Shown here: piece after piece, positions 2,066 to 8,679 of the stretch | Layout of the letters: the number at the start of each line of letters is the position of its first letter | Numbering within the stretch: position 1 is the first letter of the stretch | Assembly: GCF_900215335.1 (NCBI RefSeq) | Contig: NZ_OCMT01000001.1 | Coordinates: forward strand, 1,054,001 to 1,118,000 | Direction: 5' to 3' | DNA: 64,000 nucleotides | Source: Pedobacter xixiisoli | GTDB taxonomy: Bacteria > Bacteroidota > Bacteroidia > Sphingobacteriales > Sphingobacteriaceae | Notes under the pieces: generated by a model | What the model was told of the DNA's origin: nothing | Seen by the model: only the letters and a program-made list of their open reading frames with translations | Database searches by the model: none | Translations under genes and position numbers: made by a program

Positions 2066-3181
2066 TTACAGTTCCAACTTCCATTGTTGTTGCACCTTTT
2101 CTTTTTCCTTTTTTTCAAGAGGGACAGTGATTTGAGGTGTTGTCTTTTCTTTTTTGTCTTCTTCTTGTTCGTCGTAATAAAGATGTTGAGCTCCCTTTAA
2201 CCTACGTTTAATTCGTTGAGCCAATATCTTTGGTCCTAAAACCTTTACACACTCCCCAAAACCAAGTATTTCTCGCTCCAATTCATAATTCAGTACCACA
2301 TCAATTCTGAAAATGGTAGTTTTTTCTTTTTCTGCAACAAGTTCCTGCGTGTGATGCAATGGTTTGGTGATTACATAAGGAGCATTTCTGTTGTCGAATT
2401 CTAAAATTACTTTGTGTGCTCTGTCGTTGCTGCTTTTGGTTACGCCAATTAAATCACTATAATAACGTTCAAAGTCAATCCCCTCATGAGCTTTAAAGGG
2501 CTCATTTGGTAATTCCTGAAATTCGATAATCCTATCCAATGCCAGATTTAAAAGCATTCCACCTTTTTTAGCTTTAACGATCACAAACCAACGGTTTCTA
2601 TATTCCTTCAATAAATATGGATAATAGATTAAATGCTGAGATTGCTGTGCCTTAAAAGATTTATACTCTATTAGTAAAGCTGATTTTTTCAAGATAGCCT
2701 GATACAGTTTCGGGATGTAATCCATCCCTTTCAACTGATTATTGCTTTCTAATTGGATATAATTACCACCTTCATGGGTTGATTTATGAAGATTGTTTTC
2801 TAAGCGGGTAATCATGTCGCTCATTTCGTCGAAGTAGTTGAAGGCATTGAACTGCTTTAAAACCCCAACAATTTCTTTCATTTTATCTACATCGGCGTTG
2901 TTTATTGGAGCTTTGGTGATACTGAAACTATCATCTTCATAAGTGTAAAATCTTTTGTCTTTTACGATAATAGGTGCGTTGTAGCCTAATTTATCGCTGC
3001 GCATCAATTGAATGTCTGCCTGTATAGTGCGTTTACTCACGCCAGAAGTAATTCCTTCTAGCTCGTAAAGTGTTTCAGAAACCTTTTCGATCAAACTTTC
3101 TAAGGTCCATTTTTTATAACGGTTTCTTAAACAATCGTCGATGGTTTTATATCTAATTAATGCGAGCTTATTTGCAGCCAT
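2066..3181 (-). CDS. WYL-domain transcriptional regulator of the RNA-repair locus
   Basis: The 371-residue protein begins with a helix-turn-helix-like segment (about 1-95, including SKRTIQADIQLMR, the recognition-helix region typical of HTH/WYL proteins). The middle carries a WYL-type Sm-like fold (about 160-245) with the YYPYLLKEYRNRWFVIVKA segment, in which YRNRWF corresponds to the ligand-binding arginine strand of the family. A WYL C-terminal extension follows, then a lysine/glutamate-rich tail (about 340-371). WYL domains sense nucleic-acid or nucleotide ligands. The gene is transcribed away from the tRNA-like/SPFH/RtcB unit and shares a 966-bp divergent region with it, so it is the obvious local regulator. 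Two copies of a likely operator (3256 and 3367) lie in that region. Whether it activates or represses is not proven. Confidence 0.9.
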   Translation of the reverse strand: MAANKLALIRYKTIDDCLRNRYKKWTLESLIEKVSETLYELEGITSGVSKRTIQADIQLMRSDKLGYNAPIIVKDKRFYTYEDDSFSITKAPINNADVDKMKEIVGVLKQFNAFNYFDEMSDMITRLENNLHKSTHEGGNYIQLESNNQLKGMDYIPKLYQAILKKSALLIEYKSFKAQQSQHLIYYPYLLKEYRNRWFVIVKAKKGGMLLNLALDRIIEFQELPNEPFKAHEGIDFERYYSDLIGVTKSSNDRAHKVILEFDNRNAPYVITKPLHHTQELVAEKEKTTIFRIDVVLNYELEREILGFGECVKVLGPKILAQRIKRRLKGAQHLYYDEQEEDKKEKTTPQITVPLEKKEKEKVQQQWKLEL

Positions 3182-3528: not shown

Positions 3529-3561
3529 CCAAAGTATGAGTTGCATTGCATCATCATATGC
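3529..3561 (+). other. Leader segment complementary to the second tRNA-like unit
   Basis: CCAAAGTATG (3529-3538) is perfectly complementary to 3685-3694, the acceptor loop and 5' acceptor strand of unit 2. CATTGCATCA (3544-3553) is perfectly complementary to 3709-3718, and TATGC (3557-3561) to 3699-3703, covering the D arm of unit 2. The first duplex is not nested with the other two, so both sets cannot form as one simple hairpin. The segment could be an anti-tRNA strand that competes with folding, or the relic of an inverted copy. Confidence 0.45.
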
Positions 3562-3586
3562 TGATAGGAGAATGATTTTTGTCCAA

Positions 3587-3652
3587 TTTGTGTGTCGTGG
3601 GTTCGAATCCCACTTCCGAGCAATCGGAGTAACTCAGGGGTAGAGTAACAAA
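3587..3652 (+). ncRNA. Circularly permuted tRNA-like RNA, unit 1 (break at anticodon)
   Basis: Read 5' to 3': TTTGT (anticodon 3' strand, 3587-3591), GTGTC (5-nt variable loop), GTGGG-TTCGAAT-CCCAC (T arm, 3597-3613), TTCCGA (acceptor 3' strand, 3614-3619), GCAA (3620-3623), TCGGAG (acceptor 5' strand, 3624-3629), TA (positions 8-9), ACTC-AGGGGTA-GAGT (D arm, 3632-3646), A26, ACAAA (anticodon 5' strand, 3648-3652). Acceptor, D, T and anticodon stems all pair, with one G-U in the acceptor. U8, A14, the GG of the D loop, A21 and TTCGAAT are conserved. The acceptor is capped by a GNRA tetraloop in place of a CCA end, and the RNA ends lie at the anticodon loop. It precedes the SPFH and RtcB genes on the same strand. 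A degraded tRNA array is the alternative, but the cross-half pairing argues against it. Confidence 0.72.
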
Positions 3653-3658
3653 CCAAAT

Positions 3659-3732
3659 GCAGGTTCGAATCCTGCTTCCAAAACCATACTTTGGAATAGC
3701 ATAATGGTTGATGCAATGGATTAGGGTTCCAT
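3659..3732 (+). ncRNA. Circularly permuted tRNA-like RNA, unit 2 (break at variable loop)
   Basis: Read 5' to 3': GCAGG-TTCGAAT-CCTGC (T arm, 3659-3675), TTCCAAA (acceptor 3' strand, 3676-3682), ACCA (3683-3686), TAC, TTTGGAA (acceptor 5' strand, 3690-3696), TA, GCAT-AATGGTTG-ATGC (D arm, 3699-3714), A26, ATGGA-TTAGGGT-TCCAT (anticodon arm, 3716-3732). All four stems are perfect, including a 7-bp acceptor. The acceptor 3' strand is followed by discriminator A plus CCA, as in a mature tRNA end. The anticodon loop has T33 and reads AGG (proline codon CCT) if it is an anticodon at all. The unit starts 6 nt after unit 1. The break lies between anticodon arm and T arm, unlike unit 1. No normal tRNA can be folded here in linear order. 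Confidence 0.7.
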
Positions 3733-4028
3733 CTAAAAAGAAGAGATACTTTAAATTTCTCAAACCAAAAGCATTGCAAAAGCAATCGGCTTGTAGAGCT
3801 TGCAAAACCTCGAAGAGCAAATTTGCCTTTTGCTTTGTAAGTAAAAACGAAAAAGGTGCTGATTTAACAATCAAATCATCGTGCAGTAGAAAGCCATATC
3901 CAACGGATGTCGCCGAAGCTAAAATTTGATTTCATTCTTAAAAACAACCCAACACAATTTACTTCCGCAGAAAACAGATGAATGTTTTTGCAATGCTTTT
4001 TTAAAATGTAAAAATAGCTTGTAAAACA
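3733..4028 (+). other. Gene-free leader downstream of the tRNA-like units
   Basis: No convincing reading frame is present; open frames here are antisense or in-frame artefacts of tRNA-like sequence. Short hairpins are visible: ATTGC-AAAA-GCAAT (about 3772-3785) and the palindrome GCAAATTTGC (about 3818-3827). I could not assign a third tRNA-like unit. Confidence 0.5.
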
Positions 4029-4147: not shown

Positions 4148-5245
4148 ATGAAAAGAATTACAATTAACACCAATTATGTTGGATTGGTGTTTAAAAACGG
4201 AGAATTTAAAAGAGTATTAACAACAGGTACTTACTGGTTGGGTTTCGGTGAAAATGTGACTTTGTACGATAAAAGCAAAGATTACGATTTCTCGACCGCA
4301 GAGTTAGATGTGTTATTGTTAAATGCTGAGTTTGTGAACTTAATTTACTTGGTAAGTGTAGCCGATAACGAATTGACCTTAGTTTACCAAAACAAGAACT
4401 TTAAAAACGTTTTAAAAGCTGGCAGATATGTGATTTGGAAAGGTTTATCGACTTATGAGTTTTTAACTGTGGATATCAGCAAAATAGAAATTGAAAACAC
4501 CATCGATAAATACTTATTTGAGAAAGGTGCGTTGTTCAACTTTATCAGAATGTATAAAATTGAAGCTTATGAAAAGGGCATCATGTTAATTGATGCAAAA
4601 TTCGATAGGATTTTAGAAGCTGGAACTTATTTGTACTGGAAAAACAATATCACAATTGACGTTTTGAAAGCTGATTTGAGGCAATTGAACATGGAAATTG
4701 TTGGTCAAGAGATTTTAACGAAAGATAAAGCGCAATTGAGGATGAATTTTACCATCCAATACAAAGTGGAAGATGTGGTTAAAGCCTTGTTGATGAACAA
4801 AGATTTCGAAAAGCAATTATATGTTACAATGCAATTGGCTTTAAGGGCGGCTGTAGGTTTAATGACTTTTGATGAGTTAATGGAGAGCAAAGAAAAAATT
4901 GGCACATCAGTTTTGGAAGCTACCGTTAACAAAGCCGAAGAGTTGGGTGTAAAATTAGCTGATGCTGGTGTGAAAGACATCATTTTGTCTGGCGAGATTA
5001 AAGACATCATGAACCAAGTGTTGGTTGCCGAAAAAAGAGCACAAGCTAATATGATTACGAGGAGAGAGGAGACGGCATCGACCAGAAGTTTGTTGAATAC
5101 CGCAAAATTGATGGAAGATAACACTATGTTGTACAAATTGAAAGAGATGGAATACGTGGAGAAGATTGCAGAGAAAATCAATACCATCAGTTTATCTGGC
5201 AGCGGACAAATTGTAGATCAGTTGAAACAGATTTTTGTAAAGTAA
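4148..5245 (+). CDS. SPFH/Band-7 (slipin-like) protein of the RNA-repair locus
   Basis: The 365-residue protein contains an SPFH/Band-7 domain (about 115-310) with the LTKDKAQLRMNFTIQYKV strand pair and the following helical region (VLVAEKRAQANMITRREETASTRSL) typical of slipin/prohibitin proteins. The first 100 residues look like a related beta-rich repeat (VGLVFKNGEFKRVL... / LTLVYQNKNFKNVL... / EKGIMLIDAKFDRIL...). There is no N-terminal membrane hairpin, unlike classic slipins, so the protein is probably soluble or associates with membranes indirectly. SPFH proteins form large ring assemblies. In RtcB operons they have been proposed to scaffold repair together with a tRNA-like RNA. It lies directly downstream of the two tRNA-like units and upstream of the nucleotidyltransferases on the same strand. 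Confidence 0.88.
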   Translation: MKRITINTNYVGLVFKNGEFKRVLTTGTYWLGFGENVTLYDKSKDYDFSTAELDVLLLNAEFVNLIYLVSVADNELTLVYQNKNFKNVLKAGRYVIWKGLSTYEFLTVDISKIEIENTIDKYLFEKGALFNFIRMYKIEAYEKGIMLIDAKFDRILEAGTYLYWKNNITIDVLKADLRQLNMEIVGQEILTKDKAQLRMNFTIQYKVEDVVKALLMNKDFEKQLYVTMQLALRAAVGLMTFDELMESKEKIGTSVLEATVNKAEELGVKLADAGVKDIILSGEIKDIMNQVLVAEKRAQANMITRREETASTRSLLNTAKLMEDNTMLYKLKEMEYVEKIAEKINTISLSGSGQIVDQLKQIFVK

Positions 5246-5427: not shown

Positions 5428-6189
5428 ATGAAAACAACGATAATAAATAAGTTAAAGGAAATAGAAATAACCAATAATATAAAAATATTATTTGCTTGTG
5501 AATCTGGTAGCAGAGGTTGGGAATTTCCTTCACCTGATAGTGATTATGATGTAAGGTTTATTTATGTTGGACCACTTAATTTCTACCTTTCAGTTTTAGA
5601 AAAAGATGACCATCTTGGTTTTCCAATAAATGATGAGCTAGATATTTATGGTTGGGATCTTAGAAAAGTATTAAAGCTTATCAAGAAATCCAATACTACA
5701 CCTTTTGAGTGGTTGCAATCGCCAATAGTTTATAGTGAACAGGAAAATTTCAAGAATGATTTGTGGCAGCTTTGTCAGTCTTATTTCTACAGAAAGACAA
5801 ATATTAACCATTATTTAGGTATTGCTCATGGCGCATTGGCAACGATCGTTAATGAAGATGAAATAAAAATAAAGAAACTATTTTATGTGCTTAGACCACT
5901 GCTTTCTGCAAAATGGTGCTTAGATAAAGAAACAATTGCTCCAATGACAATTGGTCCATTATTAACGCTAATGCCAGAAAATTTAAAAGTAATGGTTGAG
6001 GAATTAATCGCTTTAAAGGCAGAGTTGGCAGAGAGTTTTATGGTAAAAATAGATTCAAATTTGAAAATATATATTAACGAGCAGTTTGAAATATGCAGGA
6101 ATGCTGCAATGAAACTTCCAAAAGAAAGCTTTGAAGCCGAAATGCTAGATACATTCTTTAGAAACACAATAATGAGTTATGACAATTAA
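5428..6189 (+). CDS. DNA polymerase beta-type nucleotidyltransferase 1 (COG3541/YcgL-like)
   Basis: The 253-residue protein has the minimal nucleotidyltransferase signature near its N terminus: G27-S28 in ACESGSRGWE, then D39 and D41 in SDYDVRF, which bind the metal ions. The C-terminal half is helical and resembles the YcgL-type predicted nucleotidyltransferases (assignment from memory). The family is thought to add nucleotides to RNA or protein ends. Its place between an SPFH protein and RtcB suggests it prepares or tags RNA termini before ligation. It overlaps the next gene by 11 bp, which indicates coupled translation. Substrate is unknown. Confidence 0.85.
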   Translation: MKTTIINKLKEIEITNNIKILFACESGSRGWEFPSPDSDYDVRFIYVGPLNFYLSVLEKDDHLGFPINDELDIYGWDLRKVLKLIKKSNTTPFEWLQSPIVYSEQENFKNDLWQLCQSYFYRKTNINHYLGIAHGALATIVNEDEIKIKKLFYVLRPLLSAKWCLDKETIAPMTIGPLLTLMPENLKVMVEELIALKAELAESFMVKIDSNLKIYINEQFEICRNAAMKLPKESFEAEMLDTFFRNTIMSYDN

Positions 6190-7246
6190 AGAACTAAAAG
6201 ATAGAAATCTATTATTATTCGAATGTTTAAGTGGAAGCAAAGCTTATGGCTTAGATACACCTCAATCAGACACTGACATTAAAGGAGTCTACTATATGCC
6301 AAAGGATATGTTTTTTGGATTAAAATATATTCCTCAAGTGAGTAATGAAACTAACGATGAGGTTTATTATGAAATAGGTCGTTTTGTCGAGCTTTTGATA
6401 AAGAATAACCCTAACATAGTTGAAATTTTAGCTACTCCAAATGATTGCGTGATATATAAACATCCACTTATGGACAGATTACAAATTGATTTAGTTTTAT
6501 CTAAGCTATGCAAGGAAACCTTTGGCGGTTATGCACTTACTCAGATAAAAAAAGCTAAAGGGTTAAAAAAGAAAATCGTTAATCCAATGCCTAAAACTAG
6601 AAAATCAGTTTTAGATTTTTGTTTTATAACGCAAGCTTATTCGTCTGTTAAAGCAAATAAATGGCTTAAGCAACATAACCTATCAAATGCAAATTGCGGA
6701 TTGTCAAAAATCCCAAATGGAAAGAATTTGTATGCGTTGTTTTATAGTGAAGGTAATGATTTTAGCTATAGAGGAATAGTAAATAAAGAATTTGCTAATG
6801 ATGTTTCGGTATCGTCTATACCTAATGGGGAGAAAGAGATTGCTTACGTATTCTTTAATAAGGATAGTTATTCAACCTATTGTAAGGAACATAGTGAGTA
6901 TTGGGACTGGGTTGGAAAACGTAATGAAGATCGATATCGTCTTAACAAAAAGCATGGTAAAGATTATGATGCAAAAAACATGATGCATACTATTAGATTG
7001 CTACAAGTCGCATTGGAAATTGTTAGAGATGGTAAGCTAAATGTGAAGAGAGCAAATAGAGATGAATTGTTGGCAATAAAAAGAGGAGAATTTGAGTATC
7101 AAGAGGTGCTGGAAATGGCAGAAGTGCTGATGCAGCAAATTGAGAAAGAAACGGTTTATAGTAAGTTAAAGGATAATCCTGATGAAAAAGAAATGGAAAA
7201 CATACTTATCGAGATTAGAGAAGAGCTTTACAACAAAAGAGATTAA
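6179..7246 (+). CDS. DNA polymerase beta-type nucleotidyltransferase 2
   Basis: The 355-residue protein is a second member of the same superfamily, with G19-S20 (CLSGSKAYG) and D31/D33 (SDTDIKG). It is about 100 residues longer than its upstream neighbour and only distantly similar to it, so the pair is not a recent duplication. The ATG at 6179 lies inside the end of the previous gene, and the stop is 2 nt before the rtcB start, so translation is probably coupled. The role is inferred from context: end modification of RNA that RtcB will seal, or of the tRNA-like RNAs encoded upstream. The two enzymes may act on different ends or form a heteromer. Confidence 0.85.
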   Translation: MTIKELKDRNLLLFECLSGSKAYGLDTPQSDTDIKGVYYMPKDMFFGLKYIPQVSNETNDEVYYEIGRFVELLIKNNPNIVEILATPNDCVIYKHPLMDRLQIDLVLSKLCKETFGGYALTQIKKAKGLKKKIVNPMPKTRKSVLDFCFITQAYSSVKANKWLKQHNLSNANCGLSKIPNGKNLYALFYSEGNDFSYRGIVNKEFANDVSVSSIPNGEKEIAYVFFNKDSYSTYCKEHSEYWDWVGKRNEDRYRLNKKHGKDYDAKNMMHTIRLLQVALEIVRDGKLNVKRANRDELLAIKRGEFEYQEVLEMAEVLMQQIEKETVYSKLKDNPDEKEMENILIEIREELYNKRD

Positions 7247-7248
7247 AA

Positions 7249-8679
7249 ATGAAAACAAACGTAACAGGAGCTAACCTTTTAGCAATTGGTTACTCCGAAG
7301 GTAAAATAGTGGGCTTGGCTTTAGATATTTTGAAGGAAAACTTTGCAGAAGTTGATGAAGCAGAATTATTAGCCTTATTTAAAAAATTAAAAGATTATCC
7401 AGAAAGTTTTTTGGATGACCCTATATTGGCCGAATTAGCAAAAGCAATGATTGAAGACGCTTTGCCAAAAACAAAAGATACGATTGATTTGCTAGCACAA
7501 GCTGATGCGAAAGATTATAATATTTTTGGTGAAAGCTACATTGAGGAAGGCGCAAGAAACCAAATGAACATTGCTATGAAACTGCCGATTACCGAAGCAG
7601 GTGCGTTAATGCCAGATGCTCACCAAGGTTATGGTTTGCCAATTGGCGGGGTATTGGCGACTAAAAATGCTATCATTCCTTATGGTGTTGGTGTCGATAT
7701 TGGTTGTAGAATGGCTTTGAGCATTTTTGATATTCCAGAGAAACATTACTTTGGTAAAGATGACAAGTACAAAAGGGAGTTAATTGCTTTTACCAAATTT
7801 GGTGCTGGAAGAGAATTTAGAGGACTGGAAAGAGCAGATCATGAGGTGATGGAAAACGAAGCTTTTAATGGTACACCATTTTTTAAAAATTTACATGGAA
7901 AAGCTTGGGCGCAATTAGGTACTTCGGGCGGCGGAAATCACTTTGTGGAATGGGGAATTATCGAATTTGCTGAAAGAGATGAGGTTTTGAACATCGATAA
8001 AGGTAGGTACGTTGCTTTACTAACGCACTCAGGTTCTAGAGGTTTGGGAGCAACTATCGCTGGTCATTACACTAAATTGGCTAAAGAGATTTGTAAATTA
8101 CCAAAAGAGGCAGCGAACTTGGCTTACTTGGATTTAAACTCTGCAGAAGGGCAAGAATATTGGATTGCTATGAACTTGGCTGGTGATTATGCATCCGCTT
8201 GTCACGAGGTAATTCATAAAAGATTGACTAAAGCAATTGGTGCAAAGGTTTTAGCTAAGGTAGAAAACCATCATAATTTTGCTTGGAAAGAAACTTTAAA
8301 TGGCGAAGAAGTGATTGTGCATAGAAAAGGTGCAACTCCGGCAGGAAAGGGCGTAATGGGGATTATTCCGGGAAGTATGACTGCGCCTGGCTTCTTAGTT
8401 AGAGGTAAAGGGGAAGTGTCTTCGATTAATTCGGCATCGCATGGTGCGGGTAGGTTAATGAGCCGCTCTAAAGCCATCCAATCTATCACTAAATCTGATA
8501 TGAAAGCCATTTTAAAAGACCACGGTGTTACCTTAATTGGTGCGGGTTTAGACGAAGCGCCAATGGCCTACAAAGATATTCACCAAGTGATGGCTGCACA
8601 AACCGAATTGGTAGATGTAGTTGCCAAGTTTGAGCCTAAGATGGTGAGAATGGCCGATGATGGGAGTAGGGAAGATTAA
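7249..8679 (+). CDS. rtcB: RNA-splicing ligase RtcB
   Basis: RtcB joins RNA 3'-phosphate or 2',3'-cyclic phosphate ends to 5'-OH ends with GTP and Mn2+. The 476-residue protein has the full active-site set: PDAHQGYG (about 122-129), D150 and C153 in GVDIGCRM, H231 in GGGNHF, H260 in THSGSRG, H341/H342 in VENHHN, and the guanylated histidine H398 in SASHGAGR. It carries an N-terminal extension of ~80 residues compared with the ~408-residue E. coli enzyme. It is the last gene of the unit and is followed by a terminator. Cleaved tRNAs with the ends left by anticodon nucleases are classic substrates, which fits the anticodon-ended tRNA-like RNA at 3587. No RtcA cyclase or archease gene is nearby. 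Confidence 0.97.
   Translation: MKTNVTGANLLAIGYSEGKIVGLALDILKENFAEVDEAELLALFKKLKDYPESFLDDPILAELAKAMIEDALPKTKDTIDLLAQADAKDYNIFGESYIEEGARNQMNIAMKLPITEAGALMPDAHQGYGLPIGGVLATKNAIIPYGVGVDIGCRMALSIFDIPEKHYFGKDDKYKRELIAFTKFGAGREFRGLERADHEVMENEAFNGTPFFKNLHGKAWAQLGTSGGGNHFVEWGIIEFAERDEVLNIDKGRYVALLTHSGSRGLGATIAGHYTKLAKEICKLPKEAANLAYLDLNSAEGQEYWIAMNLAGDYASACHEVIHKRLTKAIGAKVLAKVENHHNFAWKETLNGEEVIVHRKGATPAGKGVMGIIPGSMTAPGFLVRGKGEVSSINSASHGAGRLMSRSKAIQSITKSDMKAILKDHGVTLIGAGLDEAPMAYKDIHQVMAAQTELVDVVAKFEPKMVRMADDGSRED

Follow-up and report, generated by a model that had tools for sequence, protein, structure and literature searches.

Gene set and tRNA-like element

The window analysed here, a stretch of 64,000 nucleotides from Pedobacter xixiisoli, contains a gene set in which an SPFH/Band-7 gene is followed by two RlaP genes and an RtcB gene, with a WYL/WCX regulator gene oriented divergently upstream. 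Between the regulator and the SPFH gene lies an element (3587-3732) composed of two tRNA-like units, each ordered T arm, acceptor hairpin, D arm, and separated from the SPFH gene by 415 nt. The features are listed below; arms and loops were assigned from the sequence, and helix numbers are those of the alignment described in the next section.

2066-3181, minus strand: WYL/WCX regulator gene (Pfam WYL and WCX), divergent, likely regulator of the gene set; minus-strand homologue in 49 of 80 loci
3534-3559, no strand assigned: dyad GTATGA...TCATAT, putatively operator-like or a short hairpin; matched changes among Pedobacter-type leaders
3587-3591, plus strand: unit 1, 3' strand of the anticodon-type stem, pairing with 3648-3652; helix 1, both-side changes in 5 of 5 pairs
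3592-3596, plus strand: unit 1, variable loop, 5 nt
3597-3613, plus strand: unit 1, T arm with loop TTCGAAT; conserved in the seed alignment
3614-3629, plus strand: unit 1, closed hairpin of the acceptor, beginning with its 3' strand (3614-3619 with 3624-3629, 6 pairs including one G-U; loop GCAA, 3620-3623); helix 3, both-side changes in 6 of 6 pairs
3630-3646, plus strand: unit 1, positions 8-9 (U8-A9; TA, 3630-3631) and D arm (3632-3646); helix 4, covariation
3648-3652, plus strand: unit 1, 5' strand of the anticodon-type stem, 5 pairs with 3587-3591; helix 1
3653-3658, plus strand: link from unit 1 to unit 2, in place of a unit 2 variable loop
3659-3675, plus strand: unit 2, T arm; conserved
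3676-3696, plus strand: unit 2, closed acceptor hairpin, 7 Watson-Crick pairs (3676-3682 with 3690-3696; loop ACCATAC, 3683-3689); helix 6, both-side changes in 6 of 6 modelled pairs
3697-3714, plus strand: unit 2, positions 8-9 (U8-A9) and D arm (3699-3714); helix 7, covariation
3716-3732, plus strand: unit 2, anticodon arm, 5 pairs, loop TTAGGGT; helix 8, both-side changes in 5 of 5 pairs; loops canonical across loci
3723-3725, plus strand: unit 2, anticodon position, AGG
3769-3781, plus strand: long-range stem, 5' strand, 13 Watson-Crick pairs with 3986-3998
3986-3998, plus strand: long-range stem, 3' strand, pairing with 3769-3781
4148-5245, plus strand: SPFH/Band-7 (slipin-type) protein (Pfam Band_7)
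5428-6189, plus strand: RlaP nucleotidyltransferase 1 (Pfam RlaP, E 1.9e-67)
6179-7246, plus strand: RlaP nucleotidyltransferase 2 (Pfam RlaP, E 5.2e-22)
7249-8679, plus strand: RtcB RNA ligase (Pfam RtcB, E 1.8e-81)

Much of what the initial annotation had described at this locus is borne out. In both units the T arm and acceptor 3' strand precede the acceptor 5' strand and D arm, the core positions (U8, A14, GG, A21 and TTCGAAT) lie where they had been placed, the acceptor of unit 2 (TTCCAAA with TTTGGAA, across ACCA-TAC) is a perfect helix of seven base pairs, and that of unit 1 (TTCCGA with TCGGAG, closed by GCAA) is present with a single G-U among its six pairs. The predicted SPFH-RtcB operon does lie downstream, with the two RlaP genes in addition between SPFH and RtcB. 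Two claims stand only in part: the permuted units are indeed adjacent, but as one continuous structure rather than separate RNAs, and the full complement of tRNA arms attributed to both is found in unit 2 but not in unit 1. The latter lacks an anticodon loop; instead, the two ends of the unit pair with each other to make an anticodon-type stem, whose 3' strand (in linear order) runs directly into unit 2. An ordinary linear tRNA reading was rejected because the linear acceptor strands are unpaired, despite a score of 31.4 bits with the Rfam tRNA model (RF00005), which spans both units with the acceptor pairs broken. No tRNA was called at the element by ARAGORN. Against the fold, 3565-3745 folded freely by itself stands out only mildly from shuffled sequence (z -1.79; 9 of 200 shuffles equal or better).

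The structural model of the SPFH protein (AlphaFold2, pLDDT 78, pTM 0.56) contains three similar five-strand beta repeats, the SPFH core and a long C-terminal helix. Three tandem five-strand beta repeats are unusual for slipins. As the SPFH profile matches stomatin chains in the PDB, including several entries with 16 or more chains, the protein is likely, by analogy, to form a ring or cage. No match to phage relatives of the SPFH gene was found, nor any to defence-system models for the SPFH protein, both RlaP proteins or RtcB; the WYL regulator matches two WYL defence-system models and, more weakly, a Cas3c model. Targets of TrcR repression in Anabaena include rtcB, a gene of the slipin family and an operon of spare tRNAs (PMC10272220), and the rtc locus of Pseudomonas aeruginosa holds a slipin gene (PMC13086221).

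Conservation of the permuted fold

Pairing in the permuted order was assessed over 94 loci, comprising 14 close SPFH copies from 296 genomes of the phylum, that of the window included, and 80 named contigs. T arms were picked by sequence alone, not by pairing, between 250 and 900 nt upstream of the SPFH gene and outside the tRNAs called by ARAGORN. An acceptor hairpin of at least five perfect pairs follows 151 of the 204 T arms at these loci, compared with 24.2 on average and 36 at most when the downstream parts were exchanged among loci (300 runs); a permuted-type hairpin of this kind follows 11 of the 70 T arms of ordinary tRNAs nearby. Among 65 pairs of neighbouring units, preselected for an acceptor hairpin in a way that favours the permuted figure, six of seven acceptor pairs are reached in 53 in the permuted order and in four in the linear order, and the original assertion that the acceptors do not pair linearly is therefore mostly correct. 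For the anticodon-type stem of unit 1 the excess is modest: with the geometry not fixed, five of five pairs form in 61 of 75 cases, against a swap mean of 45.1 (maximum 57). Seven of the 94 loci have no permuted acceptor of at least five perfect pairs, two of these being without a T arm in range, and a further two of the seven (L060 and L101) still match the covariance model described below. Under a looser rule, the number of units per locus is none in 3 of the 94, one in 24, two in 57, three in 9 and four in 1.

The seed alignment consists of 36 sequences chosen for paired helices from 39 parsed loci (L052, L053 and L099 were left out); 31 of the 80 named loci contributed seeds. It contains 39 pairs in eight helices, with 98.2% of cells paired and both-side changes in 35 of the 39 pairs, including six of six modelled pairs in each of the two acceptor helices; in total 360 cells are changed on both sides, against 100.6 in shuffles. 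A covariance model was built from these seeds, the means by which the initial annotation had proposed to look for compensatory changes in the acceptors, and such changes are indeed found. The model matches upstream of SPFH in 73 of the 80 Bacteroidota loci with an E value of 1e-11 or better, reaching at least 82.5 bits in 65, while seven loci have no match at this E value. In the model-fitted alignment, whose 74 rows are biased by the fitting toward the model structure, 96.9% of cells pair, compared with 69.8% when shuffled and 40.5-47.6% in slid controls; there are 799 both-side changes against 214.4 in the shuffled rows, and the score is 0.746, against at most 0.151 when slid. These rows represent the 73 loci and a second match in L107 that lies inside its tRNA array, and the rows of L052 and L053 are identical. 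Since the seeds were picked for pairing, the fairer tests are the T-arm swap described above and the 41 non-seed rows (one of the two identical rows dropped), in which 96.8% of pairs are kept, against 68.5% after row swaps, and 454 both-side changes are observed, against a mean of 121 and a maximum of 177 in the swaps. Given the size of the effect and the seed-free T-arm test, there is little doubt about the fold: covariation establishes the permuted acceptor and the T and D arms in each unit, as well as the anticodon-type stem that joins the ends of unit 1 and the anticodon arm carried by unit 2.

Distribution and association with SPFH genes

In a scan of the 296 phylum genomes with the model, which may miss weak matches as filters were stricter and ten candidates were scored per genome, ten matches of at least 109 bits were found, all within about 0.55 kb upstream of a close SPFH copy. 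Of the remaining four of the 14 SPFH genomes, two have weaker matches by the gene (51.4 and 58.5 bits) and two have none among the matches listed. The best matches elsewhere, again among those listed, do not exceed 79.1 bits and include ordinary tRNA arrays; this value is the best match in a genome without an SPFH match, and is surpassed at the 65 of 80 SPFH loci that reach 82.5 bits or more. The seven non-SPFH match sites that were checked (L122-L128) hold between 4 and 13 tRNAs each. Two of them, L122 and L123, are large tRNA clusters from genomes in which the SPFH protein has no match, and downstream in L123 an open frame resembles a YkuK-type RNase H-like protein.

The gene neighbours at the 80 loci include RtcB in 61, RlaP in 14 and a WYL gene in 49; RtcB was not found in the other 19, two of which have cut flanks. 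In the Taibaiella locus (L050), genes for an RNase T-type exonuclease (7492-8037) and for two RlaP proteins follow SPFH, and the flank analysed yielded no RtcB. Where a match to RtcB lies upstream of SPFH, the element is in every case (11 of 11) between the two and adjoining SPFH. The position of the element is thus tied to SPFH and not to RtcB.

Same-strand ordinary tRNA genes occur within 4 kb upstream of SPFH in 32 of the 80 loci (among L055-L110), although two of these, L090 and L094, rest on one tRNA call inside the permuted RNA; 12 loci have at least four such genes. Within 4 kb downstream of SPFH, tRNAs are present in only 2 of the 80 loci. The 130 tRNAs include none for Ala, Gly, Val, Thr or Met, a composition that may be the mark of a spare-tRNA bank of a particular kind.

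The ordinary tRNA genes upstream in 32 of 80 loci, and scores of up to 79.1 bits that neighbouring ordinary tRNAs attain with the model, could be taken to mean that the element is the decaying remnant of a tandem tRNA array. Such an explanation is hardly credible, because the covariation in all eight helices and the canonical anticodon loops show selection and the non-seed rows contradict decay. Furthermore, the loci L032-L054 have no same-strand ARAGORN tRNA within 4 kb upstream, yet the model matches in 23 of 23.

The SPFH family was also found over at least 80% of its length in nine records of a plasmid collection, the leaders of all of which were inspected. In Photobacterium the leader has two linear tRNA-like units, scoring 54.1 and 46.4 bits with the Rfam tRNA model; read in linear order, the acceptor of unit 1 forms seven of seven pairs and that of unit 2 pairs poorly. 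In Burkholderia, two T arms are present in each of the four leaders; the second lies in a linear unit with six or seven of seven acceptor pairs, and among the leaders read these second units have a short closed anticodon end. The anticodon stem of the second unit is capped by a short GAAA- or AAA-type loop in L143, L148 and L150. In Citrobacter, two E. coli records and one filed as Subdoligranulum, a T arm leads into a hairpin of the permuted type with 6-7 pairs; single cases of this sort are weak, given that swaps yield such hairpins about one time in ten. The Citrobacter locus has a divergent rtcR and a downstream nucleotidyltransferase, and the E. coli genomes searched with its leader and slipin gene gave no match at a setting of about 85% identity. 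Judged from these sequences, tRNA-like elements beside this SPFH family are distributed more broadly than Bacteroidota, and a linear topology occurs too. The linear units of Photobacterium and Burkholderia hence imply that the permuted order is not essential to the link with SPFH.

Anticodon loops and acceptor loops

Anticodon hairpins were sought after a D arm by a stem of five pairs and a loop length of 7 nt, not by the letters of the loop. The 53 hairpins obtained in this way have U33 in 51, R37 in 50 and Y32 in 51, and bear 19 triplets, of which Lys UUU (12), Leu UAG (9) and Arg UCG (5) are the commonest. Three of the 53 are likely not to be anticodon arms (L057 at -587, L104 at -772 and L103 at -646); without them the figures become 49, 47 and 48 of 50, respectively, with 16 triplets. 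Within Pedobacter the triplet drifts (AGG, AAG, UAG) while U33 is constant. Triplets with A34 other than ACG, which are unusual for working bacterial tRNAs, make up 6 of the 50.

The acceptors are closed by loops that are often short. Of the 91 first-unit acceptor loops, 43 are 4 nt long and 18 of those are GNRA; CCA is present in two of these 91 and in 10 of the 71 later-unit loops. These features bear on the suggestion that the units are permuted tRNA genes, the precursor of which would be cut and circularised by RtcB, a working tRNA then arising, as it does in algae, once the circle is opened in the acceptor loop. The placement of the 3' half before the 5' half would fit such a scheme, as would the presence of RtcB nearby and the one acceptor loop that reads ACCATAC. 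Nevertheless, it is rendered very improbable by the short, frequently GNRA-type first-unit loops and the rarity of CCA in them, by the missing anticodon loop of unit 1 and by the A34 triplets. Because the loops are canonical while the triplets shift and the acceptors are closed by a short loop, it seems instead that the anticodon loop itself may be recognised, rather than used for decoding; the retention of canonical anticodon loops on RNAs that would not readily be charged points in this direction.

Proposed role of the element

The reading preferred here, with a probability of roughly 0.45, is that the element gives a predicted, trans-acting RNA that would partner the SPFH ring within a complex for RNA repair, with the anticodon loop serving as scaffold or bait. 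The element would be transcribed, and its closed acceptors would keep the RNA out of aminoacylation and translation. Unit 1, which is shaped like a Y RNA core, may act as a protein-docking module, while the anticodon loop of unit 2, as bait or guide, would be met by anticodon nucleases, the cut ends of which might be sealed by RtcB. The SPFH protein, for its part, could form a stomatin-like ring or cage that gathers RNA and enzymes.

The main rival to the trans-acting partner is a cis-acting leader, in which the tRNA-like fold within the mRNA, bound by SPFH, RlaP or RtcB or competing with damaged tRNAs, would set SPFH expression, as do tRNA-like operators elsewhere. Several properties of the leader are consistent with this. 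The element lies upstream of the SPFH gene, with a median distance of 431 nt between the last permuted T arm and the start codon, and in the window no terminator-like site was found on the plus strand between the two. The long-range stem downstream of the element is likewise conserved, showing matched changes, with some pairs broken, among 13 Pedobacter-type leaders, from which it follows that the structured leader likely reaches to about 4000. On the other hand, the distances to SPFH vary widely (253-878 nt; n = 91 of 94 loci), no switch structure was found near the start codon in the window, and a single genus carries different triplets, which is incompatible with the sensing of one particular tRNA. 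A Y RNA of comparable shape is, moreover, described as acting in trans in PMC8394870. Regulation in cis is accordingly regarded as doubtful.

Upstream of the element, the dyad at 3534-3559 shows matched changes (GTATTC...GAATAT), again with some broken pairs, among the 13 Pedobacter-type leaders. In several leaders (L003, L004, L013 and others) unit 1 is directly preceded by a short hairpin, the loop of which is CCAAA-like, and by a GGAGGTTT-like stretch. A scan for sigma-70 promoters gave 4 sites, compared with 4.6 in shuffles, and thus no excess. A Bacteroidota -7 type promoter (TAnnTTTG) just before unit 1 was considered and rejected, because the motif has no consistent position across 39 leaders; a start site is therefore not proposed.

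A more elaborate form of the trans-acting partner can also be envisaged, in which a chain of permuted, acceptor-closed mimics with interchangeable anticodon loops would serve as bait. Anticodon nucleases would cut the mimic held in the SPFH cage and RtcB and RlaP would reseal it, such that an attack could be both sensed and soaked up while charged tRNAs are spared; the chain might have originated from tandem tRNA genes by a switching of acceptor partners. As a complete scenario this is considered unlikely.

Comparison with known systems

The closest parallel to unit 1 is the bacterial Y RNA YrlA (RF02553; PDB 6CU1). Both have the permuted succession of T arm, closed acceptor and D arm, the module being present in the element by covariation of the permuted helices, and YrlA is linked to rtcB operons in some bacteria. 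The permuted order is therefore not new for tRNA mimics, as bacterial Y RNA already has it; in PMC11472068 it is described as superposing on tRNA with circular permutation. The element differs in its second unit, which bears a full anticodon arm, and in the presence of SPFH instead of Ro60.

It could be proposed that the element is a Y RNA proper, in which unit 1, as a YrlA, would tether PNPase or some other effector and SPFH would replace Ro60. The YrlA core does match unit 1 in 10 of 10 strong loci (31.8-47.4 bits), and the permuted order is the same as in PDB 6CU1. However, all of these scores are below the Rfam gathering score of 69, including the 41.4 bits of unit 1 in the window, and 7 of the 10 matches do not extend beyond the core, lying inside model positions 17-92; the match in the window is full length, but with the basal-stem pairs broken. 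Low scores with this model are unspecific, as 33.6 bits are reached in L118 by a pair of adjacent ordinary tRNAs. The long basal stem that binds Ro60/Rsr is absent, the ends of unit 1 pairing only through the 5-bp anticodon-type stem, and a search for Ro60/Rsr (TROVE, PF05731) found no match in the genome of the window, the control search being positive in 1 of 14 named genomes. Membership of the Y RNAs was rejected on the basis of the score below gathering, the broken basal stem and the lack of a TROVE protein, and a YrlA-like tethering role of this kind is considered improbable.

A tRNA-like RNA adjoining the SPFH gene of an RNA-repair gene set, as seen here, is a feature shared with an RNA linked to SPFH/Band-7 and RNA-repair ligase genes that was reportedly described by Burroughs and Aravind in 2016. 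Among the papers listed, judged by title and in part by the opening of the abstract, the literature search found none on a permuted SPFH-linked element, within a coverage that leaves out most subscription journals and leaves novelty unproven.

The permuted tRNA genes of algae and archaea resemble the element in that the 3' half comes first and an intervening sequence joins the acceptor (PMC3978253). Compared with what is described there, the element has no sign of maturation, its acceptors are closed by short loops and its unit 1 is without an anticodon loop; the 3'-half-first order is present, whereas a complete anticodon arm with a CCA or processable acceptor is absent. Tandem tRNA genes (RF00005) have arm sequences and core positions in common with the element, in which the acceptor partners have by contrast been switched to the neighbouring strand.

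The linear units near SPFH in other lineages (L144, L143, L148, L149 and L150) share with the element the SPFH family, the position and the two T arms, and differ in the linear acceptor pairing of Photobacterium unit 1 and of the second Burkholderia unit. A single SPFH gene family thus goes together with permuted tRNA-like units in Bacteroidota and with linear ones in some other lineages. For SPFH-RtcB gene sets, the element provides a well-supported and testable candidate RNA partner, and tRNA mimicry in the style of Y RNA would thereby be extended to a gene set without Ro60.
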